The notes below the pieces were generated by a model. The model ran no database searches. It worked only from the letters and a program-made list of their open reading frames with translations, and was not told where the DNA came from. Source: Phycobacter azelaicus (GTDB taxonomy: Bacteria > Pseudomonadota > Alphaproteobacteria > Rhodobacterales > Rhodobacteraceae). From it: DNA of 64,000 nt. Positions 32,172-54,016 of the stretch are shown here, in pieces. The stretch lies in NCBI RefSeq assembly GCF_014884385.1, contig NZ_WKFH01000003.1, positions 2,326,001 through 2,390,000 of the forward strand. Reading direction: 5' to 3'. A program made the position numbers and the translations under genes. Numbering within the stretch: position 1 is the first letter of the stretch; each line of letters opens with the position of its first letter.

Positions 32172-32180
32172 GAGGTGGAT

Positions 32181-32663: not shown

Positions 32664-32680
32664 CATCTGGAGACTTTGGC

Positions 32681-34879: not shown

Positions 34880-34898
34880 GAGTGGAAGGGGAACTCTG

Positions 34899-35432
34899 AT
34901 GCGGAATGAAGCACTGCGCGGGGAAATCGTGGCGGACAGTCGGGGCTGGCAGGGTGAAGGAGAGGAGGAGGCCTCCTCTGCCACATACCTGATGTTCAAG
35001 CTGGGGGAGCGCATCTTTGCAGTGGATGTCCGTTCGGTGAGAGAAGTTCTGGTCGTCTGTGAGATGCTTCCGCTGCCCAAGGCACCGCCGGATGTCGTTG
35101 GGGTGATTGATCTTAGACAACAGGGGATCGCCATCGTGGATCTGGCATCCCGGCTTGGGATGACCGCAGAACCGGCTGAAGACGCAAGGATTGTGGTCTT
35201 TGAGGTGGGCGATGGGTCCGAGGCGGTTTCCATCGGTGTGATTGCGGATCAGGTTCTGCGGGTGCGCGAGGTTGCAGATGAAGATGTGGAACCGGTCGCA
35301 CAAGTCGGAGCGGATTGGCAAGGCGAAGGTGTCACTGGGATGATACGATCCGGAGATGGCCTGGCGCTGATCCTTGAGGTTGAGCGGTTCCTGATCATCT
35401 CGGATGACAAAAGTGAGTTTGATTTCGGCTGA
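34899..35432 (+). CDS. cheW: CheW coupling protein (second copy)
   Basis: A 177-residue CheW-fold protein with an extra N-terminal stretch of about 25 residues: YLMFKLGERIFAVDVRSVREVL, VVGVIDLRQQGIAIVDLASRLG and GLALILEVERFL. The ATG at 34899 follows AAGGGGA. It differs clearly from the first CheW, so the two may couple different receptors or occupy different ring positions in the array. Confidence 0.92.
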   Translation: MRNEALRGEIVADSRGWQGEGEEEASSATYLMFKLGERIFAVDVRSVREVLVVCEMLPLPKAPPDVVGVIDLRQQGIAIVDLASRLGMTAEPAEDARIVVFEVGDGSEAVSIGVIADQVLRVREVADEDVEPVAQVGADWQGEGVTGMIRSGDGLALILEVERFLIISDDKSEFDFG

Positions 35433-35505
35433 TCTGCGGTTCTGTGGCAAGGCTGGACGTCGCAGATCCTTGGTTCTCAGTATCGGATAAGACTGGATAT
35501 TCGAC

Positions 35506-36363
35506 ATGAAAATGGTGGCCCCGCCCTTGAAGTTGTCTGCTCAAGAGTGTCGCTTTCTGGCTGAACGGGCGTTTGCATTCGCCGGGGTCCAGATCGATCC
35601 GCGCAATCAGGATTTTTTTCAACTACGGGTGTCTCGGCGTTTGCGTATGCTCGGAATGGATAATTTTGACGACTACATGTCGTTGCTGGAGTCCGATGGG
35701 ACCGGCAACGAAACCAGATGCCTGACCGAGGCGCTTACGACCCATACGACCAGTTTCTTTCGCGAATGCCACCAGTATGAATGGCTGCAAAAGGAGGGGC
35801 TGCAACGATTAAGCGCTTCAGGAGCCGGGTTCGAACGCCCTTTGGTGGTGTGGAGTGCGGCCTGCTCGACCGGCGCGGAACTCTGGTCGGCGGCCATGAT
35901 CCTTGAGGATGCTGCACGTGCGCGGGGCGGATTGCGCAAGTACCAGTTGATCGGCACGGATATCTCGCGGCCCGTCCTGAAAAAGGCAGCTGGTGCCACC
36001 TACAAAGAAATCGAGATTGACGGTCTTGGTGATGCCCATCGATGTCGCTATTTGATGCGCTCAACCACGGCAACGGATCTCGAAAAACGTCCCTATTACC
36101 GGATCGTGCCCGAGTTGCGGCAACATGCGGAGTTTAAGTGGGCAAACCTCAGCAACTTGTCCGGATTTCAGGATTGCGCAGCTGACGTGGTGTTCCTGCG
36201 CAATGTGCTGATCTACTTTTCCGAAGAGGTGCAGCAGCGGGCTTTGAACGGTGTCATCGACCGCATGCGACAAGGGGGCATATTGATGACGGGCCACGCC
36301 GAAGTTGTCTCGCCAAGGCCCTATTTGCGCATGATCCGGCCGTCCATTTACGAGAAGGTCTGA
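35506..36363 (+). CDS. cheR: Chemotaxis methyltransferase CheR
   Basis: A 285-residue SAM-dependent glutamate methyltransferase: the N-terminal helical domain with [17 protein letters not shown], the SAM motif [30 protein letters not shown] and [14 protein letters not shown]. The usual STGEEPYS reads STGAELWS, which may alter the SAM pocket slightly. It methylates receptor glutamates in adaptation. Confidence 0.94.
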
Positions 36364-36367
36364 CGTG

Positions 36368-37444
36368 ATGGCAGTTGAGAAAAAAAGCGGCCCATGGAAA
36401 GTTCTGATTATCGACGACAGTGCTGTCGTCAGGCAGACCATGCAGAAAATACTCGACGGCGATCCGGATCTTGAGGTCATGGCGGTTGCCTCGGATCCGT
36501 TTGTGGCGGCGGAAAGGATCCGGCAGCAGGTTCCGGATGTCATCACCTTGGACGTCGAGATGCCACGCATGGACGGCATTACTTTCCTGCGGCGCCTCAT
36601 GGCGCAGAAGCCGATCCCTGTGGTGATCTGTTCCACCCTGGTAACGGACCGGTCGGAAACCCTGTCAGAGGCGCTTGATGCCGGGGCAGTCGACATCGTG
36701 CTGAAGCCAGAACTTGGGATCAAAGAGTTCTTTGAGGAGGCCTGCATGACCCTGCGCGATACGGTCAAGGCAGCGGCGCAGGCCAAGCTGCAGATCGTTC
36801 GTCGTCCGAAGGTGCAGGAAAAACTCAACGCTGATGTCATGCTGGCTCCCCCTAGCAAGGCGATGGCGCGTACTACGGAAAAGGTAATCGCAATTGGTGC
36901 GTCCACAGGGGGCACCGAGGCTTTGCGTATCGTGCTGGAGGGTTTGCCTATGGATTGCCCACCGATCCTCATTGTTCAGCATATGCCCGAGACCTTCACC
37001 GGTGCCTTTGCCCGTCGTCTTGACGCTACATGCGATGTGACCGTGCGGGAGGCCCGTTCGGGTGATCGCATGTTGCGCGGCCATGTCCTGATCGCGCCCG
37101 GAAATCGCCATACACTGCTATCGCGCAGCGGGGCCCACTACAGTGTGGAGGTCAAGGATGGTCCTTTGGTCTCGCGCCATCGCCCGTCCGTCGATGTGAT
37201 GTTTCGGTCCGTCGCGCGCTATGCCGGAAAGAATGCTGTGGGTGTTATCATGACGGGCATGGGGGATGATGGGGCCAAGGGACTGCTGGAGATGCGGCAG
37301 GCGGGTGCGCGGACGATAGGCCAGAACGAGGAGAGTTGCGTGGTTTATGGAATGCCCAAGGAAGCCAAGAAGGCCGGCGGTGTTGATGAGGAAATCCATT
37401 TGGACAGAATAGCCAGCGCAATCAGGCGCCTGTCCTCGACATGA
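36368..37444 (+). CDS. cheB: Chemotaxis methylesterase/deamidase CheB
   Basis: A 358-residue CheB: receiver with IDDSAVVRQ and the phospho-Asp in [12 protein letters not shown], linker, and the methylesterase domain with catalytic Ser in [11 protein letters not shown], His in VQHMPETF and Asp in [12 protein letters not shown]. It is the last gene of the operon. The ATG at 36368 is preferred over the GTG at 36365 and follows GAGAAGG. Confidence 0.95.
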
Positions 37445-37496: not shown

Positions 37497-37571
37497 TGGC
37501 AGCCCGTAGGGGAATCGAACCCCTCTTTCCAGGTTGAAAACCTGGCGTCCTAACCGATAGACGAACGGGCC
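37497..37571 (-). tRNA. tRNA-Glu (anticodon UUC)
   Basis: A full cloverleaf reads on the minus strand from 37571 (GGCCCGT) to the encoded CCA at 37497-37499. The anticodon stem CCAGG/CCTGG encloses TTTTCAA, giving anticodon TTC for Glu. The T-arm GGGGTTCGATTCCCC is perfect. It separates the chemotaxis operon from the accessory region. The accessory DNA lies on its 5' side rather than its 3' end, so it is not a standard tRNA 3'-end insertion. Confidence 0.95.
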
Positions 37572-37742: not shown

Positions 37743-38594
37743 TTAGTGCATGACCGGTCTCGGGTCCATCGGGATGATGGTTTCCGGGGCGGGAGGGCGA
37801 TAGCCCAAGGCACTATGTGGTCGTTTGGTATTGTAGTGTTTCCTCCATTGTTCGATCAGGATTTCCGCTTCCCGAAGGCTGTAGAAGACTTCTCCGTTGA
37901 GCAGTTCATCGCGGAACCTGGCATTGAGGCTTTCGCAGTAGCCGTTCTCCCAAGGTGACCCGGGCGCGATGTAGGCGGTCTTGGCGCCGACGGCCCTGAT
38001 CCAATCTTGAACGGCCTGAGCCACGAACTCCGGGCCGTTGTCAGACCGGATGTAATCCGGCACACCCCGCATGATGAACAGGTCGCTCAAGGCATCGATC
38101 ACGTCACCCGAGTTCAGCTTGCGCTTCACCTTGATCGCCAAGCATTCCCGACTGTGCTCGTCCAAGATGTTGAGCGTCCGGAAGACCTTTCCGTCCTCCG
38201 TCCGGCAGTGGACAAAGTCATAGCTCCAGACGTGGTTGCGATACTCAGGGCGCAGCCGGACACAGGATCCGTCATAAAGCCAGAGCCGTCCCTTCTTCGG
38301 TTGCTTCATTGGCACTTTCAGCCCCTCTCGTCGCCATAGGCGCTCGACCCGCTTGTCGTTCACCTCCCAGCCCGCATCTCTCAGCAAAGCCGCGATCCGA
38401 CGATAGCCGTAACGGCCATACTGCCGCGCCAGTTCGACCATGTCCGCGACCAGACGCTCCTCATCGGCACGGCCATGCGGCACCTTCCTCTGCGTGGATC
38501 GGTGCTGACCCAAGACACGGCAGGCGCGTCTCTCGGACAGATGGAACCGGGTGCGAACGTGATCGATGCAGGCACGGCGGCGAGCGGGGCTCAA
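37743..38594 (-). CDS. IS3-family transposase OrfB
   Basis: A 283-residue integrase-core transposase. It has an N-terminal HTH-like region (YGRYGYRRIAALLRDAGW) and the DDE residues: Asp in WSYDFVHC, Asp in SDNGPEF and Glu in NGYCESLNARF. It overlaps orfA by four bases. Frameshifting onto orfA would normally make the OrfAB fusion; a plain stop-start overlap is also possible here. Confidence 0.92.
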   Translation of the reverse strand: MSPARRRACIDHVRTRFHLSERRACRVLGQHRSTQRKVPHGRADEERLVADMVELARQYGRYGYRRIAALLRDAGWEVNDKRVERLWRREGLKVPMKQPKKGRLWLYDGSCVRLRPEYRNHVWSYDFVHCRTEDGKVFRTLNILDEHSRECLAIKVKRKLNSGDVIDALSDLFIMRGVPDYIRSDNGPEFVAQAVQDWIRAVGAKTAYIAPGSPWENGYCESLNARFRDELLNGEVFYSLREAEILIEQWRKHYNTKRPHSALGYRPPAPETIIPMDPRPVMH

Positions 38595-40348: not shown

Positions 40349-42334
40349 CTACTTTGACACAAGGTCTGAAAAGAACTCGGACACGGGGGTTACTCCTGAC
40401 ATCCAAAGATAGTCCCTTGCACGTGTGGCAGCTACATAGAGCAAATGCCTTTCAGTCGCCATGACTTCGTCGAGTTGAGCTTCGTCTCGCGCGGCCATGA
40501 TCCTGCGTTCGTCAGGTAGAACGTCGTGATCAAGAGCGACAATTGCCACAGCCCTGAATTCGGCACCTTTTGCATCGTGCATGACCATGGTGTTTACGGT
40601 ATTATCCCCCAAGGAAGCGCATATTTGCTCTTTAAGTTGCTCCCGACGCACAAGGACTGCGATTTCGTCCGAAGGAACACCAAGTTCTGTTAATCCCGCA
40701 AGCCAAGTCCTGAGCGCCGAAACCTCTTCATCGCGGTCGCAAAAAGCCGCCATTTCCGGCGGCGGACCGTCGAATACTGATGTTACTCCGGTGCGACTGT
40801 CTTCACTGCCGTCCGCTTCAACGAGGATTTCTGGTAACAGAGTGTCGCTTCGAACACGGATTTGGTGGGACGTCCGGTAGTTGACCTTAAGGCTTCTCGA
40901 CCGGCCGCGGATGGAAACGCCTGCAGCTGACCAAGGGAACGGTGCGCGGAAAATGCGTTGCCCAATGTCGCCAGCAAAGAAAAGGCCGTTTTTAGCTTCA
41001 CCCAGTGCGGATCCAAGCAGCAGCAACTCTGCGACAGAGATATCTTGTGCCTCGTCCACAACCACATGATCGAATGGGAAATTCCCATGACGGCGCAGAT
41101 CATGCGCCATCTGCGCCTCTGTTGTGTAGCCTTCGGCCTGAAGCCTTTCACGTGTGGCTTCGAACACCATCCAAAGCGCATCTCGTCGCGAGGTTGCCAT
41201 GCGTACCTTGCGCCCAAGCCGTGGCAGGTCTCGATAGGTGTCCATGTCAGGCACATCCCAAGCGTCGACGATCAGTGACCACTCATCAAAAAGGAAGTCC
41301 GGATCAACCTGGACGCTGCAGGAAGCAGCCGCTTCTTCGAGGAAATGGCGCAGCGTGCTTTCATCGGCAAGTTCGTGATTTCCGAAGTGTTGCACATGAA
41401 GCCGCAGTATCAACGAGCCGAGTGCTTCAACGCAAACTCGATCAAGCTTATCCAGCCCAGCAACGAGCGGTAGCTTTTCTCGCAATCGATCCGCCAGCTT
41501 CCGGTTGAAGGTCGTGAGAAGCACGCGTTTCTCTGGCACTTCCGCCAGCCGCGCGGCGCGGTGCAGCGCGACCACCGTTTTGCCCGTGCCTGCTGAGCCG
41601 ACGACCCGTGCGGGGCCTGAGAAGTCGCGGGTGACGTATTCTACTTGGGCCGGATGCAGGAAGACCGACCATTTTTCCCATGGGGCGTCCAGCGCAGCTT
41701 GCAACTCTTCCACATTCTCGAATACACGGAAACGGCGTGCGGCATCGGGGTGCGCGTAGGGGTCTGCGCTGGAGGGGGACGGCGTTGGACGTGTGCCCGT
41801 CGCCGCTTGTATCAAGGCTTCCCCGGCTTCGGCGGGAAGGTGCCCGGCAATGTCCAGAACCGTCTCTTCTGTTGCCTCACGCACCGTATCGAGCCAATCT
41901 TCCGGCACACCCCAGGACAAAAGGGTGTCATCGGACTCGTCCGCGAAGAGGCGTGGCAGTCGCACGGCTTCTTCGACATAGCGTTGTATGATCACTTCCT
42001 CGACAGTCTCGCGGATCTCGACGATCTGCGCGGCCCCGGTGCGGGGGTGGGTGTCGATGCGGCGCGTCTCGGCCCAACGATAGGCGTCGTCATGATGTCC
42101 GACCCAAGCCAGCAGGGTGGCGCCGTCTTTTTTGTGCAGGACCAGCCGGATGTCGCGGTTGACCCGGGCGGTCCAGAAATACGGATCGCGTGCCCGGTCG
42201 ACGCGGTGCATCTGCAGGCCCGGATTGGCGGGGTTCATCTGAAGGTCAAATGCTGCCGTCTTGACCGCCTTTTGCTCCTGCGCGGTCAGCTTGGCGAGGC
42301 TGTCGGTAAAGGTGTCGGCTATGCGGGTGGTCAT
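40349..42334 (-). CDS. UvrD-family helicase with RelE/ParE-like N-terminal domain
   Basis: A 661-residue protein, last gene of the minus-strand restriction operon. Residues 1-93 resemble a RelE/ParE-type toxin fold (FTDSLAKLTAQEQKAV, FWTARVNRDIRLVLHK, WVGHHDDAYRWAE). The rest is a superfamily 1 helicase: Walker A VGSAGTGKTVVAL near residue 243, VVVDEAQDIS near 425, VNYRTSHQIR, the HDAKGAEFRAV motif and LLYVAATRARDYLWM. Its start overlaps the DUF4357 gene stop (ATGA). It probably unwinds or translocates on DNA for the neighbouring restriction system. Whether the N-terminal domain cleaves RNA, binds DNA or is structural is unknown. Confidence 0.87.
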   Translation of the reverse strand: MTTRIADTFTDSLAKLTAQEQKAVKTAAFDLQMNPANPGLQMHRVDRARDPYFWTARVNRDIRLVLHKKDGATLLAWVGHHDDAYRWAETRRIDTHPRTGAAQIVEIRETVEEVIIQRYVEEAVRLPRLFADESDDTLLSWGVPEDWLDTVREATEETVLDIAGHLPAEAGEALIQAATGTRPTPSPSSADPYAHPDAARRFRVFENVEELQAALDAPWEKWSVFLHPAQVEYVTRDFSGPARVVGSAGTGKTVVALHRAARLAEVPEKRVLLTTFNRKLADRLREKLPLVAGLDKLDRVCVEALGSLILRLHVQHFGNHELADESTLRHFLEEAAASCSVQVDPDFLFDEWSLIVDAWDVPDMDTYRDLPRLGRKVRMATSRRDALWMVFEATRERLQAEGYTTEAQMAHDLRRHGNFPFDHVVVDEAQDISVAELLLLGSALGEAKNGLFFAGDIGQRIFRAPFPWSAAGVSIRGRSRSLKVNYRTSHQIRVRSDTLLPEILVEADGSEDSRTGVTSVFDGPPPEMAAFCDRDEEVSALRTWLAGLTELGVPSDEIAVLVRREQLKEQICASLGDNTVNTMVMHDAKGAEFRAVAIVALDHDVLPDERRIMAARDEAQLDEVMATERHLLYVAATRARDYLWMSGVTPVSEFFSDLVSK

Positions 42335-42654
42335 CGGCCAAAAGCCTCCTTGAGGCTTCGACCTGTCTTTTCGTCCTTCCAGAGTTGTGGGCCGCTGGCG
42401 TTGCCGTCCTTGACTATACCTGCCGCGGCGCTTGCGCTGGTGAACTCGTAGTCACGCGTGAACCTCAACAGTTCGGGATCCTTGTCGGCGCATAAAACGC
42501 CATCCCGAAGCAACTTGTCCCGCAACGGCCTGTCTCGTTTCTTGCGAGGTGAGCCCTCCGCCATTGCGGTCGAACCGGCGCGAACGAGAAATCTGTTGTC
42601 AGTGGGCTTTCCATATGCTTGTGCTTTCTCGGGTCTAAATACGAACCAAGTCAT
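42331..42654 (-). CDS. Small DUF4357-domain protein
   Basis: A 107-residue protein. Its C-terminal half (LLRFTRDYEFTSASAAAGIV, GPQLWKDEKTGRSLKEAF) matches DUF4357, a small domain often found at the C-terminus of restriction-modification subunits or alone beside them. The N-terminus (MTWFVFRPEKAQAYGKPTDN) is not recognised. It starts 3 bp after the methyltransferase stop and overlaps the helicase start. It is probably an accessory of the modification or restriction complex. Confidence 0.75.
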   Translation of the reverse strand: MTWFVFRPEKAQAYGKPTDNRFLVRAGSTAMAEGSPRKKRDRPLRDKLLRDGVLCADKDPELLRFTRDYEFTSASAAAGIVKDGNASGPQLWKDEKTGRSLKEAFGR

Positions 42655-42657
42655 CCC

Positions 42658-45540
42658 TCAAACCCCCATCACCTTCATCACCTCATCCCCCAGATGGTTG
42701 ATCACCTTCACCGCGATCCGCCCCGATTTCGGGCGCGAGAACGGGCGCGAAATGGTGCGTTTCAGGCTGTCCCAGGCTTCTTCGTCGATCTCGCCTTTCA
42801 GCGTGGTGCGCAGCTGCTTGTAGGGGATGTCTGCGCCGGGGAAATAGGCGTGGCGGACGAAGAAGCTTTCTTCGTTGTAATCGGTGTCGATAAACCAGCA
42901 GGCGATATCGTCCGGCTCTGATGCTACAACTTCGCCGGTCTGGGGTTTGAACACATCGACGCCGCGCAGCTCGACGCGCAGCTTGTCGCCATCCTCGATC
43001 ACCTCGATATCCGGCTCGCCGAAGACCACGAACAGGTTGCCGCCTCCGGCCTTGAGGTCATCGGCCATGTGCAGGTCGGGGTTCATCCGCGCCTGCAGGA
43101 TCGGCACGCGGCCCAGTTTGCGGAACTCGGCCGTGTGGGCGTCGAAGTTGAAGGCGCAGGCAATCACGATGTCGAAGCCGGCATCGGCGGCCTCGCGCGC
43201 GGCGGCGACCAGATCGGCGCGCTGCACGGTGCCGTATTCGGGGCCGATGAAGATGCCGGCGCGGCGTTCGGTGTCGCCCTCCATATACCGCCCCTCGGCG
43301 GCCAGCCAGTCACCAGGCCAGGGGGTGAGGGCGGTGAAGTCGATCTTGTCCGCCTTGCCCGATTGCTGCACTCCGGCTTTCTTGAGGTTCTCCAGGATCG
43401 ACTCGCGGAAATTCTCGGCCTCCTGCGCGCGACTGCGCTTTCCTTGGGCGGCATCATGCTCGTCGATCAACTCGCCATATTCGTTGACCGCCTGCGTGCG
43501 GTGGGGCGATAGGCTTTCGACCGTGAACGGCCCGGCGACGCGGATGCGCTTCTTGTCCTCATAGGGCTTGTCATAGAGGTATTCGAAATCGGCCTTGGCG
43601 GCGATCGAGGCGTCGATTTCTTTCTGCCGCGCGATGCGCGCCTCCCAGAACTGCGCCAGCGCATGTTTGGCCGCGTCGGGCCAATCGTCGGGCGCGTCGC
43701 GGGGGATTTCCCATTCCATGAAGCCGTTTGCCGGGGCCATCTCTCCGCTGGGCATCTCGACCTCGCCTTGGGCGGTGAAGTCGATCTCTTGCCCCTTGCG
43801 CCCGCCGGTCGTCACCTCGAAGGGCGTGGGGTGGCCCTTGAGGGCGGCGTTGAGGGCTTCGCGGGCGTCTTCCACGGCGGGCTGCATCCGGTCCCAGATC
43901 ACGTCGATCTCGGTGTTGTTGGCGATGGATTTCAGCGTGATGTGGGGGACGCGCTGGTAGACGAAGCCGTGGCGGATGTCGTTGTAGGTGGCATGGGTCG
44001 CAGGGGCAGAGCGGGTGATCTCGGCCTCTTTCTTCTGGCCTTCGGGGGAGTCCTTGAGCAGGTAGAAGGGATATTTCGCCCCCATGATCCGCGCGCGGGC
44101 GAGCGCAAGGGCCACGCGTGAGGTGTCGATGGTGATCCAGCGCCGCCCCCATTGCTCGGCCACATAGGCCGTGGTGCCGGAGCCGCAGGTGGGATCGAGC
44201 ACGAGGTCGCCGGGGTCGGTGGTCATGAGGAGGCAGCGTTGAATCGCCCGGGCATCGGTTTGCACCACATAAACTTTGTCATCTCCCACAAAGCCACCGA
44301 CCCCAGTATCCTGCCAGAGGTTCGCCATAGGGATAATCTGATTGTCCGCGATAAAGCGAACCATCCGAAGACGATTGCCTTTCTTGGCAAATCGGTCTGC
44401 CTTGGTAAGACGTTCCATGCCCGTTGGCGTCGTCTTCCAATGGGAATTGGCGGCACACGGAATCTGTTCACCTTGGAAGTTCATCGCACTGGATGAAGTT
44501 GGAGACAAACCCGCCGAGGTTAGAGGGTTTCGCGCAAAGACTTCCGATCCAGCGGGCGGTGGGACGATTTTTTCACGTTCCTGCTTGGTAAGCTGACGGC
44601 GTTCGCCATTTTCCAGCTGAACGCTATCGAAGAACTGTGTGTCTGAATTTTCAAAGGTTCGGAAAGCATACACGTTCCTGATCTTTGGGGCTGATGTCTT
44701 CGAAAACCAGAGAATGTGGTCAAAGACGTTGGAAAGCACGCCAGAAGCGTCATAGGCATTTTTCTTGAACCATATCGAACTCACAAAGTGCTCCTCCCCA
44801 AACACCTCATCCATCAGCGCCCGCACCCGGTGGACGTTCTCGTCGCCGATCTGGACGAAGCAGGAGCCGCTCTCGGTCAGCAGTTCCCGCGCCACCACCA
44901 GTCGGTCGCGCAAATACTGAAGGTAGGAATGGATGCCGTCGCGCCAGGTGTCGCGGAAGGCCTTCACCTGCTCGGGCTCGCGGGTCAGATGCTCCAGCTT
45001 GCCGTCCTTCACGTCGCGCGACTGCGTGGACCACTGGAAGTTGGAGTTGAACTTGATGCCATAGGGCGGGTCGATATAGATCGCCTGCACCTGGCCTTTC
45101 AGCCCCTCACGCTCGGCCAAGGACGCCATCACCTGCAACCCGTCGCCCAGGATCATCCGGTTCGACCATTTCTGCTGGTGGCGGTAGAATTCCACCTCGG
45201 CCTCGCGGTCCTCGTCCGTGATCCCGAAATGATCGAACAGATCGACACCCGCGCCCTCGCCATTGCGGGGATTGCCGGCGCGCAGATCCTCGATGATCGC
45301 CTTGGGATGCACCTGTTCCTGCAGGTAAATGGGGGGCGCATCGGCGGTGACGGCAGCCGCGTCGATATCCTTGCCGCGCCAGATCAGCTGCGGGTCAAGG
45401 TCGGGGTTGCGGCGCTGATAGGCCACCTTGATGGGGCGGGCATCGTCCGGGTCCATCATCGGCGCCAGTTCCGGCGTGGGAATGTTCACGCGGTCGGTGT
45501 CATGGGTGATCGGCTCGATCGGGGTTTTCTTGTCGGTCAT
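42658..45540 (-). CDS. mod: Type III-like DNA methyltransferase (beta-class, N6-adenine)
   Basis: A 960-residue site-specific methyltransferase. The catalytic motif DPPYGI (near residue 153) precedes the SAM motif DPTCGSGTTAYVAEQWGRRW (near residue 452), the beta-class order. Target recognition sequence lies between them and also in the long C-terminal half, which makes the protein longer than the usual Mod of about 650 residues. Its start overlaps the NYN gene stop (ATGA). It should modify adenine and give specificity to the restriction helicase. The recognition sequence cannot be read. Confidence 0.9.
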   Translation of the reverse strand: MTDKKTPIEPITHDTDRVNIPTPELAPMMDPDDARPIKVAYQRRNPDLDPQLIWRGKDIDAAAVTADAPPIYLQEQVHPKAIIEDLRAGNPRNGEGAGVDLFDHFGITDEDREAEVEFYRHQQKWSNRMILGDGLQVMASLAEREGLKGQVQAIYIDPPYGIKFNSNFQWSTQSRDVKDGKLEHLTREPEQVKAFRDTWRDGIHSYLQYLRDRLVVARELLTESGSCFVQIGDENVHRVRALMDEVFGEEHFVSSIWFKKNAYDASGVLSNVFDHILWFSKTSAPKIRNVYAFRTFENSDTQFFDSVQLENGERRQLTKQEREKIVPPPAGSEVFARNPLTSAGLSPTSSSAMNFQGEQIPCAANSHWKTTPTGMERLTKADRFAKKGNRLRMVRFIADNQIIPMANLWQDTGVGGFVGDDKVYVVQTDARAIQRCLLMTTDPGDLVLDPTCGSGTTAYVAEQWGRRWITIDTSRVALALARARIMGAKYPFYLLKDSPEGQKKEAEITRSAPATHATYNDIRHGFVYQRVPHITLKSIANNTEIDVIWDRMQPAVEDAREALNAALKGHPTPFEVTTGGRKGQEIDFTAQGEVEMPSGEMAPANGFMEWEIPRDAPDDWPDAAKHALAQFWEARIARQKEIDASIAAKADFEYLYDKPYEDKKRIRVAGPFTVESLSPHRTQAVNEYGELIDEHDAAQGKRSRAQEAENFRESILENLKKAGVQQSGKADKIDFTALTPWPGDWLAAEGRYMEGDTERRAGIFIGPEYGTVQRADLVAAAREAADAGFDIVIACAFNFDAHTAEFRKLGRVPILQARMNPDLHMADDLKAGGGNLFVVFGEPDIEVIEDGDKLRVELRGVDVFKPQTGEVVASEPDDIACWFIDTDYNEESFFVRHAYFPGADIPYKQLRTTLKGEIDEEAWDSLKRTISRPFSRPKSGRIAVKVINHLGDEVMKVMGV

Positions 45541-46256
45541 GTCTGTGCCTCGCCTGCTGGTTGCTGCTTTTGGCCCGGTTTGGGAAAGCCGCTGCGCAAC
45601 CCGTCAATGTGTTCGAATAGCCCGTCTTCGACCTTGCGCCAAAGCGGATCGAGGATGAATTTTACGCCCTCGCGGCGAGCCAGTTTGGCCGCGGGGACAA
45701 AATCGCTGTCACCTGCTACGAGAACGATTGCCTCGGCCTGCCGTTTCAGCGTGATTGACGCGATATCGAGACCGATCCGCATATCGACGGCCTTCTGGCG
45801 GAATGTGGGCCGGAAATCGTCATCCGTCAGGTCGTCGAATACACGGTTTTTCTTTAGCAGATCGCGCAGAACCGCGGGCTTCAACTCCCAAAGGCTGTCA
45901 GGGTCGCGGCGCACTTCGCCCAGGCGAACGGCCATATTCGAGGTGCGGCGCAACTGGTCATGCAGGGCAAGGTGGAACTGCGCCTGTTCGGTTTTGGCAT
46001 AATCGATGCCCTTGCCACTGATTGGCCGGTGCCCTTTGTCGAGATAGGGGCGCGCATCATACCAGAACGACCGGTAGAGCAGGGCGCGCGGATGCGGCTG
46101 ACGTTCGATCTTGTTGATGTGTTGGAGATGTGCTGACACGAGACGGCTGATGTCGCGGGCGACGGCCTGCGGATCATTGATGTCTGTTTTGGGGCGCACA
46201 GAACGCAGGCGTTTCAGGAAATATCCGCCGTCGATCAGGATCGCGACCTTGCTCAT
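45537..46256 (-). CDS. NYN (PIN-like) domain nuclease
   Basis: A 239-residue LabA/DUF88-type NYN protein with the acidic metal residues in ILIDGGYF, QKAVDMRIGLDIA and VLVAGDSDFVPAA. NYN domains usually cut RNA and sometimes DNA. The start at 46256 follows a GGGGG run; an upstream in-frame extension is unsupported. It sits between the restriction and methyltransferase genes and overlaps the latter, so it is likely a co-expressed effector of this operon. Confidence 0.87.
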   Translation of the reverse strand: MSKVAILIDGGYFLKRLRSVRPKTDINDPQAVARDISRLVSAHLQHINKIERQPHPRALLYRSFWYDARPYLDKGHRPISGKGIDYAKTEQAQFHLALHDQLRRTSNMAVRLGEVRRDPDSLWELKPAVLRDLLKKNRVFDDLTDDDFRPTFRQKAVDMRIGLDIASITLKRQAEAIVLVAGDSDFVPAAKLARREGVKFILDPLWRKVEDGLFEHIDGLRSGFPKPGQKQQPAGEAQT

Positions 46257-46389
46257 GCCGCCCCCTGAAACGAAACAGCCCCAAGGGGTCGGCGTTGCCC
46301 TGGATGTCGAGGGGTCACGCTTACTGCCAAGGGGCGGATGCCCCAATAATTACGTCCGAATTCGGAGCTGATCAAGAGCGAATTCTGTT

Positions 46390-49300
46390 TCATGCTGTCG
46401 CAAACTGTTTCAGAGCGTCGCAGATTGCCTCTTCCAGCCCCGGCCCTAAGTCATGCACGTCGCGCAGTTCGGCAAAGCCCCATCGGCCGAAGCTGCCCAG
46501 TCGGTTCACGGCCGGGATCCACTTGTAGCGCATGGTTTCAGCCTTGAGCATGGCGTCATGGCCGCGGAACCCCTTGACTTCGATCACCAGTGTCGTCGGC
46601 TCGGGTGCGTCCAGGCGGATCAGGAAATCGGGGCGGTAAACATGCGGTTCGCCTTCTTTCAGGTAGGGCACTTCGAAGCCAAGGTTGTGGTTCTTGGCAT
46701 AGGCGAGCACCTTGGGGTGGTCCTCGATCCTGTTGGCCAGCTTCGCCTCCCAGTCGCTGTCGGTGATGATCCAGTTGAGGTGCGACTTGTCCGGGTGCGG
46801 CTGGTAGCGGGTGGCAACCGAGGTGTTGAAATTGACGCCCAAGGTGGAGCCTTGCGGGTTATAGGGATCGAGCACCGCCCGCAGAACGCCGTCGCCACGC
46901 GGTGAGTCGATGAGGGCGCCGAAGATCAGGTCGCACACCTCGTCGGCCAGTTCACGATAGAGCAGTTGCGCCGGCACGGTGTCGCCCTTGCAGACAAGAT
47001 GGCCCTCTTGCAGCCACTGCATGACGATGCGTTTGGCGGCCGGGATCAGGTGGATCTTGGGCTGCTGGTTGGCGTCGCGGAGTTTCTCGAACACCATATG
47101 CTTGGCGACGTTGTAGGCGATGGTCGAAAGCCGCGCGGTCTTCAGATAGTCGAGCGACAGTTTTTCACTTTCGCCGACGATACCCTGCATGGTCACAACA
47201 GTTGCCGCGACCTTTTCAGGGGTGAGCACGTATTGTTCCAGCTTCGAGAAATCCACGTCGAGTCGATCGGACGGCAGGTCTGCGACGTAGCCTTGGACCC
47301 GCGGGAAGGTTATTTCCAGATGGTCACGCTCGGGTGAAACCGCGCGGACATTGATCACGTCGCGGGGGGGCTGTGGCGGCGCTACGCGTGGCTGGTCCGA
47401 GAAGTTCAGACCGTCGATCCCCATGATGTCGGCATATTCCGTGCGGAACAGGCCATTTTCGGGGTCGGCTTCATAAGACATGCGCCGGAGTGCGCGGCCG
47501 ATTACCTGTTCACAAATCAACTGTGTGCCGAAAGCACGAAGGCCGAGGATATGGGTGACGTTGTTGGCGTCCCACCCTTCGGTGAGCATGGAAACCGAGA
47601 CAACGCAGCGAACCTGCTCGCCCAGTCGCCCCTTCTTGCCGACTGTGTTCATGACTTCGCGCAGAATGTCGGCATCAGTCAGATCTTGAGTGCCTCCACG
47701 TTCTGCTTGCTCGCGGCGGAAAGCTTCAATTTCGTCGGCGTGGGCGTCTCGGAATCCTTTGTCGATATCTCCACTGGCTTCGAGCGTCGCGCTGTCGATC
47801 AAAACAGTGCGCGGACGTGGCAAGCGTTCCCCGTCATCTGCAAAGTTTGAGAACAGAGCACATTTTCCGGGGACGGTTTCCAATGTGCCATCCGGGTTTT
47901 CTCGTTCGTATCCGGCCACATAGTCGCGCAATAGCTCGGAGTTCGTCGTGTTGTTGCACACGATGATCATGACCGGCGGGATGCCCATCCCTTCGGACTG
48001 CCACAGATCAAAAGTCTTCTTGTAGTGGCCATATAGCGCGTCGATCGCGGTCTTGAGCGGGATCGGAAGGCTTTGCGGGTCAGGGCGCGCTGCGCCCCGT
48101 GCCTTCTTGGGCATCTTCTTCCCGATTGCTTTCCACAAGTTGCGGTAAAGGGGGTGCTCTCCGGAAGGCAGATTGTCGGCTACTGGCACGCGGGGAAGCT
48201 TGACGATCCCGCATTCAATAGCATCCATGAGAGAGAAATCGGACACCACCCAGGGAAACAATGTGCCCTCGACCCAACCGGATCCCGACAGGAAAAACGG
48301 GGTCGCCGACAAATCATAGACCACGCGAACGCCGACCTTTTTCTTGGCCGCTTCAATGCCGGAAATCCATAGACGCGCGGCTTCTGCGTTTTCCTCGGCC
48401 TCTTTCCTCTCGTCGCCGGTCAGTTTCGGCTTTTCTGCAGCCGTCCGCTCGCGATAGCTGTGATGGGCCTCGTCATTGATGACGTTGATTGGCCCCAGCC
48501 CCATGAGTTCGGGCATCACCCTTTGCACCATCTGCCCTTCGGTCTCGAGCGTGGTGAGTTCCTCGCCATGGCCCTTCAGTGCCGATCTTGTGCCCTTGGC
48601 AAGTTGAATCCGCTCGCGCAGTTTGAAAGCGTGATAGTTCGTGATCACGATCTTTGCCCGCTGCATGTCCTGCATCATGTCGGAAGGCACAAGGCTGAGC
48701 CGTCGGTAATAGTTCTCGGCATCGTTGGGCAAAAGAACACGCAAGCGATCGCGAATGGTGATGCCGGGTGTCACGATGAGGAACCCGCGGGAGTATGATT
48801 TTGCCCCGGGGCTGCGCACCGCATTGAGGGTCTGCCAAGCGATCAGCATCGCCATGACCGTTGTCTTGCCGGCACCGGTGGCGAGTTTCATGGCGACGCG
48901 GAACAAATCGGGGTTCGCTTCGGCATTGGCGGCCGTCAAGCGTTCTCGAAAACGTTTGCCGCGAGCCCCCATTTTCGGCGCAACCTCGGCGAGAAAGATT
49001 GCGGTTTCGACCGCTTCAAGTTGGCAGAAGAACGGCCGGATCGTCTGGGTTTCATCGGATTGCAGCGTACGCCAGTGCTGGAGCAGCTTTTGCGTCACCG
49101 GCGATACAGACCAATCGTTGGGATTGCGAAGCGCGCGCCAACTGTCCACCTGACTGCGCAGTTCATTAACGAACTCGGTCACGTTGTAGGCCATGTCCTG
49201 ACCTTCGAGACCGGCTTCGCTCAAAGATAGCTCTGTTTGCTTGGCGCCGCTTTTCACCGACTTTGCCTGAGGCATGGCCGAAATCAGATCCGATCTGCGG

Positions 49301-49407
49301 CGGGACGGCACGATTTTGTCAGTCGGTCGCCCATCCCCGTCCAACTCCCAGTGTCTGTCCGGCACTCGATAAGGAGAATTAAGTATAGGATGCTCAAAAA
49401 ATGACAT
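46390..49407 (-). CDS. res: Type III restriction subunit, DEAD/DEAH helicase with PD-(D/E)xK nuclease
   Basis: A 1005-residue protein, first gene of the minus-strand operon. Superfamily 2 motifs: Walker A KLATGAGKTTVM, DEAH box INDEAHHSY, YDLSATPFF, LTEGWDANNVTHI and EQVIGRALRRM. The C-terminus has the nuclease core YRPDFLIRLD followed by LVIEVKGF. GAGG precedes the ATG at 49407. It should move along DNA and cut it with the Mod subunit. A 133-bp gap separates it from the NYN gene, so a second internal promoter is possible. Confidence 0.92.
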   Translation of the reverse strand: MSFFEHPILNSPYRVPDRHWELDGDGRPTDKIVPSRRRSDLISAMPQAKSVKSGAKQTELSLSEAGLEGQDMAYNVTEFVNELRSQVDSWRALRNPNDWSVSPVTQKLLQHWRTLQSDETQTIRPFFCQLEAVETAIFLAEVAPKMGARGKRFRERLTAANAEANPDLFRVAMKLATGAGKTTVMAMLIAWQTLNAVRSPGAKSYSRGFLIVTPGITIRDRLRVLLPNDAENYYRRLSLVPSDMMQDMQRAKIVITNYHAFKLRERIQLAKGTRSALKGHGEELTTLETEGQMVQRVMPELMGLGPINVINDEAHHSYRERTAAEKPKLTGDERKEAEENAEAARLWISGIEAAKKKVGVRVVYDLSATPFFLSGSGWVEGTLFPWVVSDFSLMDAIECGIVKLPRVPVADNLPSGEHPLYRNLWKAIGKKMPKKARGAARPDPQSLPIPLKTAIDALYGHYKKTFDLWQSEGMGIPPVMIIVCNNTTNSELLRDYVAGYERENPDGTLETVPGKCALFSNFADDGERLPRPRTVLIDSATLEASGDIDKGFRDAHADEIEAFRREQAERGGTQDLTDADILREVMNTVGKKGRLGEQVRCVVSVSMLTEGWDANNVTHILGLRAFGTQLICEQVIGRALRRMSYEADPENGLFRTEYADIMGIDGLNFSDQPRVAPPQPPRDVINVRAVSPERDHLEITFPRVQGYVADLPSDRLDVDFSKLEQYVLTPEKVAATVVTMQGIVGESEKLSLDYLKTARLSTIAYNVAKHMVFEKLRDANQQPKIHLIPAAKRIVMQWLQEGHLVCKGDTVPAQLLYRELADEVCDLIFGALIDSPRGDGVLRAVLDPYNPQGSTLGVNFNTSVATRYQPHPDKSHLNWIITDSDWEAKLANRIEDHPKVLAYAKNHNLGFEVPYLKEGEPHVYRPDFLIRLDAPEPTTLVIEVKGFRGHDAMLKAETMRYKWIPAVNRLGSFGRWGFAELRDVHDLGPGLEEAICDALKQFATA

Positions 49408-49472: not shown

Positions 49473-50104
49473 TGGACCTGTCACGCATTGATGCCGCTCC
49501 GATTTCTCACTTATGCAGCTTGAGCCTCGAAGGCCAAGGGACTTTTCCGGCCGAGAGCTGAATGCTTACGGCGCGGATTGTAGAAGCCGTTGATGTATTC
49601 GAAGATTGCCAGTTCGGCAGCCCGCCGTGTCGGCCATGAACGACGCCAGATCAACTCGGCCTTGATGGTCTTGAAGAATGTTTCGACCGCTGCGTTGTCG
49701 TAGCAGTTGCCTTTCCCGCTCATCGAGACCTCAAAGCCATGCTGACGCAGGATCTTCTGGTAGTCGTGAGAACAATACTGGGCGGATTCAAACGGTCGTC
49801 GCAACGGTTCCGAATTGGAGGTTGTGATGACAAACCGCAAACGCGCATCAGAGCGCAGCACACGAGGTAAACTGTATTCACCGGGGCGGCCACGGGCGGC
49901 ACTGCGTTCCTGCTGGATCCACCGGCTCAGCGTTGAAAAGCCAACACCGAAGTCAGCGGCAACCTGCTTGCGGGAAAGCCCGCTCGTCAATGCGACCCGA
50001 ACCGCTTCTGCGCGGAACTCCGGGCTCGGTCGTGATGCCATGTCTGTTCTCCTTTGCGACACGATACGTGTTCAAAGGAGCGGCACAATTCCGCGACAGG
50101 TCCA
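49473..50104 (-). mobile_element. Internally deleted IS3-family element
   Basis: A 632-bp remnant with imperfect inverted repeats of about 28 bp (49473-49500 and 50077-50104, both beginning TGGACCTGTC when read inward). The 3-bp target duplication TAA flanks it at 49470-49472 and 50105-50107. A large internal deletion has removed most of the transposase. It separates the restriction operon from the Druantia genes. Confidence 0.75.
49511..50062 (-). pseudogene. Chimeric OrfA-OrfB transposase fragment
   Basis: A 183-residue open frame that joins the HTH part of OrfA (SRKQVAADFGVGFSTLSRWI, residues about 30-50) to the C-terminal part of OrfB (GKGNCYDNAAVETFFKTIKA with the catalytic Glu, then EYINGFYNPRRKHSALG). 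The first two catalytic Asp are missing, so it cannot transpose. The deletion kept an open frame. Confidence 0.75.
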
Positions 50105-50202: not shown

Positions 50203-50791
50203 GTGTCAACGGCGACAGCTATCGGCTGGCCCAAAGCAAGGCTCGCCAATACTCCTGAACCAAGCCTGGCCTTGGTCCTAACAGACCAAGGCGCCTTGGC
50301 AACCGACAGCTATGTGGGGAGCGAGTTCGCCAGGAGCCAGTCACACCCAGACTGGCCGACTTATGCTCCGCCCCGTCGCCGGATTTTGCGCCGCCGTTGA
50401 CAATCCTTACTCTTGTAGGGTGTGACTGGTTCGTACCTGACGGGCAGCGCAGGACAGGGGGGGCGATGAAGCCAGAACTCCCGCGCGGTCGCCATACGGG
50501 CCGCAGTCTTGAAACCCGGGCATCCCAGGTCGCGCAACTGCGACACAGGCATGCATAGCCGGGTGTCCGGAGCGGCGGCCCCGTGACGTTGCCGCTGTCA
50601 TGCTTGCTGCCGACGACGAACCTTGTGGCCGGCTTAACCAAGCTCTTCCCAGAGCCAAATCGTCGGCCTCTAACAACGCTTCACTGCGTCTCGCTTCCGT
50701 CGTCCGGGCTTCCACGGCTCAACCTGAGATTGCTGCTTGCAATCTGCGGCCGCATTCGCAAGGATCGCGCAACCGAGTTGAGGCGAATACA
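50203..50791. other. Non-coding stretch before the Druantia genes
   Basis: No convincing gene is seen in these 589 bases; short frames on both strands lack ribosome sites and family motifs. It probably contains decayed mobile-element sequence plus the promoter of the druH-druE unit. No clear promoter hexamers were identified. Confidence 0.4.
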
Positions 50792-53700
50792 ATGACAGTC
50801 TTCCAAGGTACTCTTGATACTAATAAATTTTCGGTAAGCGGCGGACCTCTACACACCTACCGCCTTTCGGATGAGGGTCATTCGCAATTGGCGCAGGAAA
50901 TCAGAAATCTGCTGGCGTTGCGGAAATTTCGCACCGCAGCGGCCCCATTTGTCCTGTGGGCGGCTGAGAGGTATCGCCGGGAGTATGACGGCGGCGCCCT
51001 TTCTTGGGAATTCCTGACCGAACCCTTGGGAATCGCTCTTTCTCAAACAGATCTGCGCGACATGACGCGCGCTGGATTGAAGAATCTCGGCCGACCTTTG
51101 CGGCGGATCGAGGGCGGCACGCAATATCTGCGCACCATCGCGGCAGAGGGCGGGATTCCAGTTAAACTCCTAAGCGGGCAGGGCGGATACCGTTCGGCGC
51201 TCGTCGGCCTGGTTGCGGATCTGGCACGGATGGGGCTTGGGTGTCCGCGCGATGTCGCTTTGGCATTCGCGGCGCGGCGCAGCCGACGGTTGCCGATAGG
51301 ATATCGCACCGAGGAGTTCCGAAATCTGTTTGTTGACTTCGCTATGGAGATTCTGGAGCTTCGCACTCTTGCGCCGGAAGGGCTCGCCGTACATGAGGTT
51401 GAGCCGTGGCTCGACCGCGTGAACCCAGATTGGCGGGAAGGTTTGCCGCTTCGGCTCGATGGTGACGCAGCACGCAGCCTGCTGTCCGAGGCCGTTTCCG
51501 TAACCCGCCGCTCCGGACTTGTTACCGACCCCTTCTGCCGTGTCTTGCTGCGAGACGCAGAGGAGTGTTGGACATCCTGGATAGACGTCGAGGAACAAGC
51601 CGAGATTGCGCCGGAGTTGATTGCTGGGGTGGAGCATGGGAGGCATCGCTTGCGCCTCGGTCCTGTCGGGCCGCTGGCCTCGGCAGTCCCGGACCTCCTA
51701 CTGGCACTGGATCGTGATGGGGGCAGCGACATCTGGACGTGCCGACGCATCAGCGCGCGCCGGACCTCCCGTTTCCCCTTTCCTCTGGAGCAGGCCGCGG
51801 AGCTCATCGCAATGGCCGACGGCGCTTTTCTGACACGCGTGCGACTTGCCGGGGGAGATGCGATCGACATTGGCGTCAGTCCAACCTTCTGGCGCGTCGC
51901 AGAAACCGGCGCGACAGGGGCTGAAGCCCTGTCTTACGCTGGCAGCGCATCGCTGAAGACGCAGGATCCTCATATCTGGCTGCTATGCGCCAAGGATTTA
52001 ACGCCGGATGTGGCGGAAGGCATCACGGCGAAACCGGATGGAGAGATCGCGGGAGGACAGCTTTGGCGATTGTCCGGAAGCGGGCGCGTGCTTCTGCGCG
52101 GATGGAATGCCGCCATCGCGACCCGGGCAGATGCCGATGATCGAGAAGAGATCCAGGTCGTCGGGCCGCTTGAATACCGCCTCCTCGACCGCACAGGCAC
52201 GCCGGTCTATCGAGGTCTGCCGACAATTCTCCACCGTCGGGCAGGACGCGGTTTCCGCAAGCTCTCACATCGCGAAATGTTCCATCGATTTGGCCGGTCA
52301 AAGCCTTGGCGACTGGGGCTTCCGCGCGGCGACATGATCGGACGGGTGGAAATCGCCGTGAAAGAAGGTGAGGGCGTTGGGGCGCGCGTCACCGTCAATG
52401 TAGCCCCACCTGGGATATCCATCCGGGATGTGGACCCGGGCAATCCCGAAATCCGCCTGTTGCGACTGGATGGGCTACCCATGGGCTGGAAGCTTCGGAT
52501 CGCGGATGGCGAGACGGTCGCCGTCAATGACAAGGGCCTCGCCGAGGCAGCCGTGAGTTCGGTCGATACGTTGCGTGGTCGGTTGAGCATTGCCCTTGTC
52601 AGCCCGAAGGGCGACGCGCCTTTGGCCTGGACACTCGATCTTCCCCGGGCGCGGGGGGAATTCCAGGACCAGGAAGGCGAGGTCTTGGCCCGCGACAGAG
52701 ACATCACCATGCTGGAGTTGCGGAACTGGCGGGTGGTCCCCGCCGAAACCGGCAAAACAGAACTGCGGATCCGACTTGAAGGAGCACGGTCAGGGGTCAG
52801 TCCAGTGATCGTTCGCCCCATTGTGACCGAGCAACCTCTCTCCGCCTTCCGGCCACTTCTGGAAGAGATGCTTGTGGCAGGGGGGCCGGACAGTGAACTA
52901 CGGTTACGTATTCTCTCCGGTGGTCTGCAGTCGCCGAGGCTGAAGCTTCGGCATGTGCTGGGCGAGACCTGCCTTGAGGGCTGCAAGCTGCTCACCCGAC
53001 GACAGCAGACGCTTGTCTTCGACGCAGACGTGCAAGCGGTCGCCATAGACATGGAGCACCCCGATCGCGTGGAGACGGCCAATATAGAGGATCTTGCCGA
53101 ATTGGGCGAAGGTCGCTGGTTCCTTCTCCCAAACTGGCGTGGCGTTCCGATGAGACCTCCGCGCCCCTACGTCACGCCGCAGCCAAGCGCACTGATTGGC
53201 GCAGACGCCCCAAGCCGCGACGCGCGTATCGCTCATTTTGCGGCAAGATACCGAAGTCGAGAAGCGGACACGGAATTGTCGCGGCTCTCCAAGCTGGACG
53301 GCCAGTTGCTGGCGCATGGGGTTTCGCCAGGGGCGCTGGACCAGGTTCACGCTCTTTGCGACGTGCCGGAGGCCGCGGTTCGCCTATTGATGCGTGTCTC
53401 GGAAAGCGATCTCGACGACATGCTCTCGCTTGAGCTGCACGGCGGTCCACGTTGGATATTTGTCGGGCCGGAACATTGGGCCGAAGGTTTCAGGCAGCAA
53501 GTGGCAACCCTTCGCGAGGTTTTTTCGGCGTCTCCATCGCTCGTACACAAAGCCGACGAAGAAATCCGCAGGGCAATTGCATCGCGCACCGCCGACATCG
53601 TGCGATTGCGCCCGGCCCTCACTGGGCATGTGGTGCTGGGGTTGCCGGAGAACGATCCGTTTCTCATTGTCGAACTCGCAAAGCGCCTTGGAGAATTGCC

Positions 53701-54016
53701 TTCGGCCCTGCAAGATCCGGAGGCTGCCCTGCGTGACTACGCCGACGAAGTCGTCCGGCGAAACGCGACGACCGCACCCCGACTCTACGATCTTGATGCG
53801 CGCAATCGGCCACGGGATTTCGCGAAGTATGACCCCGATCTGCGCGGGCTGATCGACGCCCCGCTGTTTGTCGCAGAAGTCGCATTCGGGACCCGTCCGC
53901 CTCCGACTACACGTCAGAGTATCGAGCTCTTGCAAGCAATTCACACAGACACAGGCGCCTTTGAAGCCGCGTTACCCGCGGCAATGGCCTGGCTCAACGA
54001 TCGGCTGCAATCCTGA
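50792..54016 (+). CDS. druH: Druantia type III protein DruH (candidate)
   Basis: A 1074-residue protein of unknown fold, placed 9 bp before a 2024-residue DUF1998 helicase. I chose the ATG at 50792 (MTVFQGTLDTNKF), which follows GAGG; the open frame runs further upstream but that part looks like random translation. It has no membrane segments. Visible repeated features are beta-rich Arg/Asp stretches (RLRLGPVGPLASAVPDLLLAL and GRVEIAVKEGEGVGARVTVN). Druantia type III consists of DruH and DruE; size, order and neighbour fit, but the family match could not be computed. Its biochemical role is unknown. Confidence 0.65.
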   Translation: MTVFQGTLDTNKFSVSGGPLHTYRLSDEGHSQLAQEIRNLLALRKFRTAAAPFVLWAAERYRREYDGGALSWEFLTEPLGIALSQTDLRDMTRAGLKNLGRPLRRIEGGTQYLRTIAAEGGIPVKLLSGQGGYRSALVGLVADLARMGLGCPRDVALAFAARRSRRLPIGYRTEEFRNLFVDFAMEILELRTLAPEGLAVHEVEPWLDRVNPDWREGLPLRLDGDAARSLLSEAVSVTRRSGLVTDPFCRVLLRDAEECWTSWIDVEEQAEIAPELIAGVEHGRHRLRLGPVGPLASAVPDLLLALDRDGGSDIWTCRRISARRTSRFPFPLEQAAELIAMADGAFLTRVRLAGGDAIDIGVSPTFWRVAETGATGAEALSYAGSASLKTQDPHIWLLCAKDLTPDVAEGITAKPDGEIAGGQLWRLSGSGRVLLRGWNAAIATRADADDREEIQVVGPLEYRLLDRTGTPVYRGLPTILHRRAGRGFRKLSHREMFHRFGRSKPWRLGLPRGDMIGRVEIAVKEGEGVGARVTVNVAPPGISIRDVDPGNPEIRLLRLDGLPMGWKLRIADGETVAVNDKGLAEAAVSSVDTLRGRLSIALVSPKGDAPLAWTLDLPRARGEFQDQEGEVLARDRDITMLELRNWRVVPAETGKTELRIRLEGARSGVSPVIVRPIVTEQPLSAFRPLLEEMLVAGGPDSELRLRILSGGLQSPRLKLRHVLGETCLEGCKLLTRRQQTLVFDADVQAVAIDMEHPDRVETANIEDLAELGEGRWFLLPNWRGVPMRPPRPYVTPQPSALIGADAPSRDARIAHFAARYRSREADTELSRLSKLDGQLLAHGVSPGALDQVHALCDVPEAAVRLLMRVSESDLDDMLSLELHGGPRWIFVGPEHWAEGFRQQVATLREVFSASPSLVHKADEEIRRAIASRTADIVRLRPALTGHVVLGLPENDPFLIVELAKRLGELPSALQDPEAALRDYADEVVRRNATTAPRLYDLDARNRPRDFAKYDPDLRGLIDAPLFVAEVAFGTRPPPTTRQSIELLQAIHTDTGAFEAALPAAMAWLNDRLQS

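Follow-up and report, generated by a model that had tools for sequence, protein, structure and literature searches.

What is an operon that looks like a type III restriction system doing with three additional genes? The question is raised by a 64,000-nt stretch of the Phycobacter azelaicus genome (contig NZ_WKFH01000003.1, positions 2,326,001 to 2,390,000; hereafter the window), in which genes for a Res-like helicase-nuclease, an NYN (PIN-like) predicted RNase, a Mod DNA methyltransferase, a DUF4357 protein and a RelE-like domain fused to a UvrD/GajB-like helicase (RelE-UvrD) follow one another (Table 1). A first-pass annotation had taken these for a fixed five-gene system. All five reading frames are indeed present in the window sequence, with the order, minus strand and place that it gave, as are the ATGA overlaps between NYN and Mod and between DUF4357 and the helicase and the 3-bp gap between Mod and DUF4357; likewise, its family calls for Res, NYN, Mod, DUF4357 and UvrD are backed by Pfam, PADLOC and NCBIfam. 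Comparison with related loci suggests another way to read the whole, to which we give a probability of roughly 0.6: a type III-like core with two cargo slots, carrying a cassette of an RNA antitoxin and an NYN RNase as a separate back-up. New beyond the earlier annotation are the RNA element upstream of NYN and the exchangeability of NYN and DUF4357.

Relatives of Res were collected from 101 related genomes (18 with a match at E ≤ 0.001), from 398 phylum genomes (35 matching at E ≤ 1e-20, 27 above the curated cut-off) and from GTDB genomes (the best 80 of 198 confirmed loci), and the window's five proteins were mapped onto the collected loci. Of the 72 loci offering 6 kb of room or more, 71 have Mod downstream of Res and on its strand (the miss is L089); of the 37 with at least 5.5 kb behind Mod, 33 have RelE-UvrD downstream of it (misses: L115, L134, L141 and L158). 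These counts exclude nine loci, mostly of a different family with Mod before Res (L058, L059, L060, L062-L065, L085 and L087). Within the 398 genomes, a full-length RelE-UvrD of at least 585 bits occurs in 18, and 17 of these also carry Res, the exception (G104) having a copy that begins at a contig edge; one further genome has RelE-UvrD in two pieces plus Res (G026), and another has RelE-UvrD fragments only (G211). The earlier proposal that the second helicase belongs with mod and res is thus borne out. On a Pseudomonas avellanae plasmid the three core genes stand alone, near insertion-sequence elements. The suggested search for all five families in conserved order gave a divided answer: the order of Res, Mod and RelE-UvrD is conserved, and NYN and DUF4357 are optional. 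On the core-order counts together with the slot counts below, and with NYN also found outside the operon, we dropped the fixed five-gene system.

The core resembles type III restriction-modification systems such as EcoP15I. Mod is a beta-class methyltransferase (PF01555, 1.6e-31; PADLOC MTase_III, 1164 bits; EcoP15I Mod 4zcf, 2.8e-11) in which motif IV precedes motif I with the recognition domain between them; DPPY (157-160) and DPTCGSGTT (449-457) are conserved, and a central variable target-recognition stretch spans approximately residues 250-440. Res matches NF046055 BPTD_3080 (NCBIfam, 1210 bits against a cut-off of 800) and PF04851 (Pfam, 6.6e-8), and its motifs, read by eye, are those of a superfamily 2 ResIII helicase with a C-terminal PD-(D/E)xK nuclease: Walker A GAGKT, a DEAH-type box and PDF...EVK. 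In classical type III systems mod is the first gene. Here, in contrast, Res is upstream of Mod, the two are joined by a third gene that is nearly constant and by two slots for cargo, and Res has no match in a PDB sequence search at E ≤ 0.1.

We call the space between Res and Mod slot 1 and that between Mod and RelE-UvrD slot 2. Across 92 loci (the window included), slot 1 is a gap of less than 170 bp in 26, holds NYN in 15 and a family of about 308 aa in 19 (the one member tested, L061, matches PADLOC PDC-S11), and is otherwise mixed; slot 2, across 64 loci, is a gap of less than 170 bp in 10 and holds DUF4357 (PF14267, 1.8e-15; PADLOC PDC-S14, 3.3e-23) in five. These counts omit loci with a missing or short Mod, and near-identical loci (such as L105/L106 and L151/L166) are both counted. 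Among 40 chosen cargo proteins, 15 have no Pfam match at E ≤ 0.001, and the others match Bro-N, PIN, GmrSD, Schlafen-AlbA, nucleotidyltransferase with HepT, ORF6N, Fic, Abi_2, C5 methylase, AAA_21 with DUF4276, SIR2 with SMC-type ATPase, PLD nuclease and AAA ATPases; PADLOC also identifies HEC-07 in L070. Judged by their families, many of the cargo genes would be of toxin-antitoxin or defence type. One Abi_2 cargo (L140, slot 1, gene at 3832 on the plus strand) has a stem and T-run of another kind just before it, seen by eye; an abiF-type RNA was suspected there and gave no Rfam match.

Close relatives show that the cargo is swapped. Loci with Res 98.5% identical carry the 308-aa family in one case and NYN in the other (L094/L095), and the same exchange is seen at 91.6% identity (L097/L098); at 97.7%, slot 1 is empty in one locus and holds NYN in the other (L093/L109), and at 96.7%, NYN is replaced by a relative of the Bro-N cargo (L124/L131). 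In ten pairs, DNA homology typically ends at or near the end of Res and restarts at or near the start of Mod; it breaks again within Mod, at about residues 250-440 (seven pairs measured, among L091-L167), where the recognition domain is expected, and restarts at the start of RelE-UvrD. The breaks therefore define three variable places: slot 1, the Mod recognition stretch and slot 2. Start-stop overlaps are kept at many cargo junctions. That a type III-like core of Res, Mod and RelE-UvrD with two slots for exchangeable cargo is real appears, from these counts and comparisons, very hard to doubt.

The cargo gene in slot 1 of the window is preceded by a conserved RNA. An alternative TTG start at 46346 would have extended NYN across this region, and we rejected it because the stretch from 46346 to 46256 holds conserved non-coding RNA: the extra codons coincide with a sequence that covaries as RNA and lies at a variable distance from NYN. 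The most likely start is therefore the ATG at 46256. We recognised the stretch by reading in 20 of 21 operon loci with NYN and built a covariance model (R1) from these operon copies only; the locus left out, L169, was then matched by R1 (11640-11706, 72.2 bits). An outer stem GCCCC/GGGGC (5' arm 46335-46331, 3' arm 46282-46278), followed by T residues as in a terminator, encloses an inner hairpin, and AGUA and CGA loop motifs are conserved. In the alignment of the 20 operon sequences (A1), 28 cells show changes on both sides of a pair, compared with 8.4 in shuffles, a value reached by 0 of 500 shuffles. In an alignment of 55 diverse elements (A4), from which a second model (R2) was made, 146 cells have both sides changed with pairing kept, compared with 31.8 in shuffles (again 0 of 500), and the covariation score is 0.642 versus 0.246. 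The window element scores 71.7 bits with R1 and 42.4 bits with R2, its own copy being within both training sets. In 23 of 72 loci a promoter-like site (at least 9 of 12 positions) stands before the RNA, compared with 10% of shuffles. Because the T-run that closes the stem comes before both NYN and Mod, the element may also reduce transcription of Mod in the operons that carry it.

The pairing of RNA and NYN extends far beyond the operon. Our breadth set comprised 99 viral and genome loci (80 of them selected from 210 viral stretches with NYN relatives), 95 with a usable NYN start; the set includes six copies from the operon (L303-L308), of which L304 is the window. R2 matched in 80 of the 99, and its match ended 4-64 nt before NYN in 77 of the 95, or in 71 of 83 NYN clusters at 90% identity. 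Among 47 held-out loci (the 99 minus 48 trained on and four repeating trained elements), 28 matched, some of them close to trained elements. A simpler score for outer stem plus T-run reached at least 14 before 78 of 95 NYN genes; among 427 other genes it did so before 60, and among 475 shuffled upstream sequences in 36. By its rule it fails on some true elements (the window, L260 and L241), and for that reason we preferred the covariance model. R2 had no match in 71 control loci chosen among the Res loci (1.27 Mb; 70 without a detected NYN, plus L168), L113 having been scored in a separate set. Run on 93 Res-operon sources, R1 found all 21 NYN loci, L113 weakly, and L088 at chance level.

In the 398 phylum genomes R1 gave 28 hits in 27 genomes at E ≤ 0.01, six of them operon copies. 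Of the 14 hits outside the operon at E < 1e-5, six adjoin NYN or a broken NYN (L187, L191, L194, L197 with a stop, L210 broken and L183 truncated); eight weaker hits in these genomes had no NYN that we could find. Among near relatives, R1 matched in 2 of 147. NYN relatives occur in 164 plasmid records, 15 phage records and the 210 viral stretches. Of 8000 proteins scored, 7736 are NYN-related, some bearing LabA or DUF88 among their source names, with the RNA pairing examined in the loci named here. On annotated plasmid and phage loci R2 matched 6 of 11, and four of the other five (L213, L214, L217 and L218) keep a stem and T-run by eye. NYN adjoins repressor or integrase genes in L214, L216, L217 and L218. 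That the RNA is real and linked to NYN we regard, from comparative sequence data, as practically certain.

Three side observations concern RNA matches. One viral contig (L250, plus strand) has two elements about 1 kb apart (2430-2486 and 3441-3498), possibly a doubled cassette. At L196 (1500-1560, minus strand) R2 scores 54.5 bits with no NYN present, between apparent hsdM and hsdS genes identified by eye, perhaps as a remnant in a type I system. In another viral contig, L286 (414-476, minus strand), a Pistol ribozyme match reaches 35.7 bits against a gathering threshold of 34.5.

Rfam appears to hold a single relative of the element, TEG147 (RF03535), which matches the L269 element just before NYN at 58.3 bits (gathering threshold 56.1); across 12 loci tried, one match was above gathering, four were below and seven loci gave nothing at E ≤ 0.1. 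The window stretch itself had four Rfam matches, all far below gathering and none credible. TEG147, 60 nt long, shares the position and the architecture of our element. It is described as an expressed, bona fide small RNA of Staphylococcus aureus HG003 (PMC5826253), and its Rfam family originated in a course (PMC7779021); the TEG147 passages of these two papers do not mention NYN. Nor is a pair of NYN and RNA described in the titles and abstract openings of the papers listed in searches of a mostly open-access literature.

The NYN protein matches PF01936 (Pfam, 3e-8), and D9, R16, R62, Y66, D67, D164, D183, D185 and D203 are the same in all 27 members aligned, which fits an active PIN-like nuclease. 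Its predicted model has a mean confidence (pLDDT) of 92, and the nearest NYN protein in Foldseek is Marf1 (rank 4, probability 1.00, TMt 0.67, E 2.1e-3); a PDB sequence search with the NYN profile returned nothing. A CRISPR-associated NYN is reported to be a Mn-dependent RNase (PMC11346440). The first-pass idea of an RNA-cutting element beside the restriction genes stays plausible, given the invariant acidic residues and the predicted RelE fold described below; what does not hold is NYN as a fixed part, since it is optional cargo.

A second setting for NYN was found on a Thermus plasmid (L324, 1378-19395), where a protein 47% identical lies between a helicase (DrmD/BrxH-like; PADLOC best match DrmD) and a DrmMI-like methylase, whose gene it overlaps by 4 bp, in a locus that has brxL and ends with a DEAD/DEAH helicase and RelE-UvrD. 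A stem and T-run upstream of this NYN are seen by eye, and R2 gives no match. It appears that the cassette recurs here, in a second kind of methylation-based system (ARMADA/DISARM-like), and again just before the methylase.

The third core gene matches PF00580 and PF13361 (Pfam) and GajB (PADLOC, 1.8e-19). Its N-terminal 110 residues have no Pfam match at E ≤ 0.001 and, in a PDB sequence search, at most a weak match to SufE (E 0.12); their predicted fold (pLDDT 90.5) has its best PDB matches in Foldseek among the YoeB, RelE and YafQ toxins (17 at E ≤ 0.001, the best 1.1e-4). Among 59 full-length members, conservation is 97% or higher at R57, D61, R63, H80, H81, D82 and Y85, which may be catalytic. 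A weaker class of RelE-UvrD in the 398 genomes, about 32-37% identical to the window copy, was set aside as a different system: a very long gene directly precedes it in six of seven fetched loci (L171-L176, that of L174 being cut by the contig end; L177 lacks it). In the only case typed, an Escherichia coli plasmid, this gene matches DruE-type helicases and follows a methyltransferase.

ARMADA Type II (ArmABCD) likewise ends with such a fusion, ArmD being described as a RelE-like domain fused to a GajB-like UvrD, and likewise combines helicases with a methyltransferase (PMC12458937). Our operon has just the ArmD-like gene: a YprA-like ArmC, a BrxHII-like ArmA and a PglX-like ArmB are absent from its five genes, type III-like Res and Mod stand in the place of ArmA, ArmB and ArmC, and the copies that are ArmD-like by context form a separate class, about 35% identical to that of the window. 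Guest defence genes between conserved operon genes are also described for Hma (PMC8565338, PMC12839542, PMC12255303), whose core differs, consisting of a helicase, an m5C methylase and a DUF499 ATPase (PMC8565338, PMC12839542). We rejected Hma as the identity of the operon, with neither a DUF499 ATPase nor an m5C methylase family among the five genes. For the cassette, the closest parallels are type III toxin-antitoxin pairs (ToxIN, CptIN) and AbiF/RCd22, the latter summarised as a phage-borne toxic protein neutralised by its associated RNA (PMC12373285): there, as here, a gene for a (predicted) RNase has a small structured RNA (here with a terminator-like stem) immediately in front of it, and phages and plasmids carry the pair. 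The cassette differs in that its protein is a PF01936 NYN (PIN-like) and not of the ToxN-like or Abi_2 families, and in having a single short RNA.

These parallels suggest how the operon might work. Mod would mark host DNA, and Res would translocate on and cut unmarked DNA; RelE-UvrD would act on the resulting ends or on stalled DNA, and its RelE domain might cleave mRNA under translation. The short RNA would bind NYN and keep it inactive, and its stem would limit read-through into the NYN gene. By analogy with type III toxin-antitoxin or AbiF/RCd22 pairs, a phage that stops host transcription or removes the RNA would release NYN, which would cut RNA and abort the infection. The genes swapped in the slots would then be other back-ups that ride along with the core. 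Since NYN is paired with an RNA of its own, the cassette would seem to be self-contained. That the RNA neutralises or otherwise controls NYN seems a good bet; an anti-phage role for the cassette is probable, slightly less so. Toxicity of NYN, and its neutralisation by the RNA, we infer.

Several observations weigh against the back-up cassette as we read it. Both-side changes at all 12 pairs, as a measure of covariation, are matched by 49 of 500 shuffles, and therefore the cell count and covariation score carry the case for the RNA. In the window itself the promoter-like site fits weakly (8 of 12), and a Foldseek search of the PDB with the NYN model gave no match at E ≤ 0.001. Type III antitoxins are described, for ToxIN, as consisting of repeats, and the RNA here is single-copy. 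R2 found no match in 19 of the 99 NYN loci and missed five of the 11 annotated plasmid and phage loci; the one of these five without a fitting stem, L222, is from Campylobacter, the source of 134 of the 164 NYN-bearing plasmid records, L222 being the one examined. For eight of the 14 stronger R1 hits outside the operon, no NYN adjoins the element. Right behind Res, L113 shows a weak match (4119-4184, plus strand; R1 30 bits, R2 23.3) with no NYN detected, perhaps a remnant. The control locus L168 has a distant NYN relative in slot 2, on the other strand (11803-12462, minus), without the RNA. Finally, Rfam classes TEG147 as cis-regulatory.

This last point belongs to the main competing explanation, in which the RNA is a cis-acting leader (an attenuator or terminator) through which NYN, by binding or cleaving it, adjusts its own expression, NYN being a housekeeping-type RNase and no toxin. 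The terminator-like stem and T-run directly ahead of the gene would suit a leader, as would the Cis-reg label of TEG147 and the LabA/DUF88 names of some related proteins, but conserved loop motifs and an inner hairpin exceed what a terminator needs, promoter-like sites are enriched upstream of the RNA, and the location of these genes in phages, plasmids and restriction operons is a further point against it. We consider a leader unlikely, though the least unlikely of the alternatives.

The same slots can be explained without any common role for their contents, if gene borders are simply recombination hot spots and the cargo a passive passenger. The cargo is very mixed, and more than a third of the proteins examined (15 of 40) are without a Pfam match; against this, several cargo matches are to toxin-antitoxin or defence families (HepT with nucleotidyltransferase, PIN, Abi_2, GmrSD, SIR2 with SMC-type ATPase, HEC-07 and PDC-S11), and start-stop overlaps are kept at many junctions, which makes mere passengers improbable. 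Lower still do we place a single five-gene machine whose effectors, NYN and RelE-UvrD, are switched on by the Mod-Res complex. It would account for the common strand, the tight junctions and the near-constancy of RelE-UvrD, but NYN in 15 of 92 loci, DUF4357 in 5 of 64, a near-empty slot 1 in 26 of 92, the cargo swaps between related operons and NYN outside the operon speak against it. The preferred reading remains the three-gene core with a separate RNA-NYN cassette.

The surroundings of the operon are included in Table 1. Pieces of IS3-family transposases flank it on both sides, and the common match of the two flanks is just 12 bp.

Table 1. Features of the operon and its surroundings (window coordinates)
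Feature	Coordinates	Strand	Size	Place	Basis
Res-like helicase-nuclease	46390..49407	-	1005 aa	core gene 1	NF046055, PF04851
Structured RNA element	46272..46340	-	~65 nt	upstream of NYN	comparative alignment; covariance models R1, R2
NYN (PIN-like) predicted RNase	45537..46256	-	239 aa	slot-1 cargo	PF01936
Mod, beta-class N6/N4 DNA methyltransferase	42658..45540	-	960 aa	core gene 2	PF01555
DUF4357 protein	42331..42654	-	107 aa	slot-2 cargo	PF14267
RelE-like domain (aa 1-110) fused to UvrD/GajB-like helicase	40349..42334	-	661 aa	core gene 3	
IS3-family transposase piece	37743..38594	-		operon flank	
IS3-family transposase piece	49511..50062	-		operon flank	
tRNA-Glu	37497..37571			near the operon's IS3 flank	
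DruH (Druantia type III pair)	50600..54016	+		adjoins operon	PADLOC, 2.7e-60
DruE (Druantia type III pair)	54026..60100	+		adjoins operon	1994 bits
Chemotaxis cluster (CheA-, MCP-, CheR-, CheB-like genes)	30126..37444	+		left of tRNA-Glu	

If the reading proposed here is right, fixed places in a restriction operon hold interchangeable back-up weapons, and the slots of such operons could be searched for new defence genes. RelE-UvrD, described in ARMADA, is now the near-constant partner of a second, different methylation-based system. It is about an even chance that NYN/LabA-like RNases of phages, plasmids and restriction operons, together with the short RNA upstream, form a new and widespread class of abortive-infection cassette, one to which TEG147 belongs and which passes among restriction operons of the type III, ARMADA-like and possibly type I kinds. 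This would give part of a large RNase family a partner and a likely role, and the orphan Rfam RNA TEG147 a testable function.

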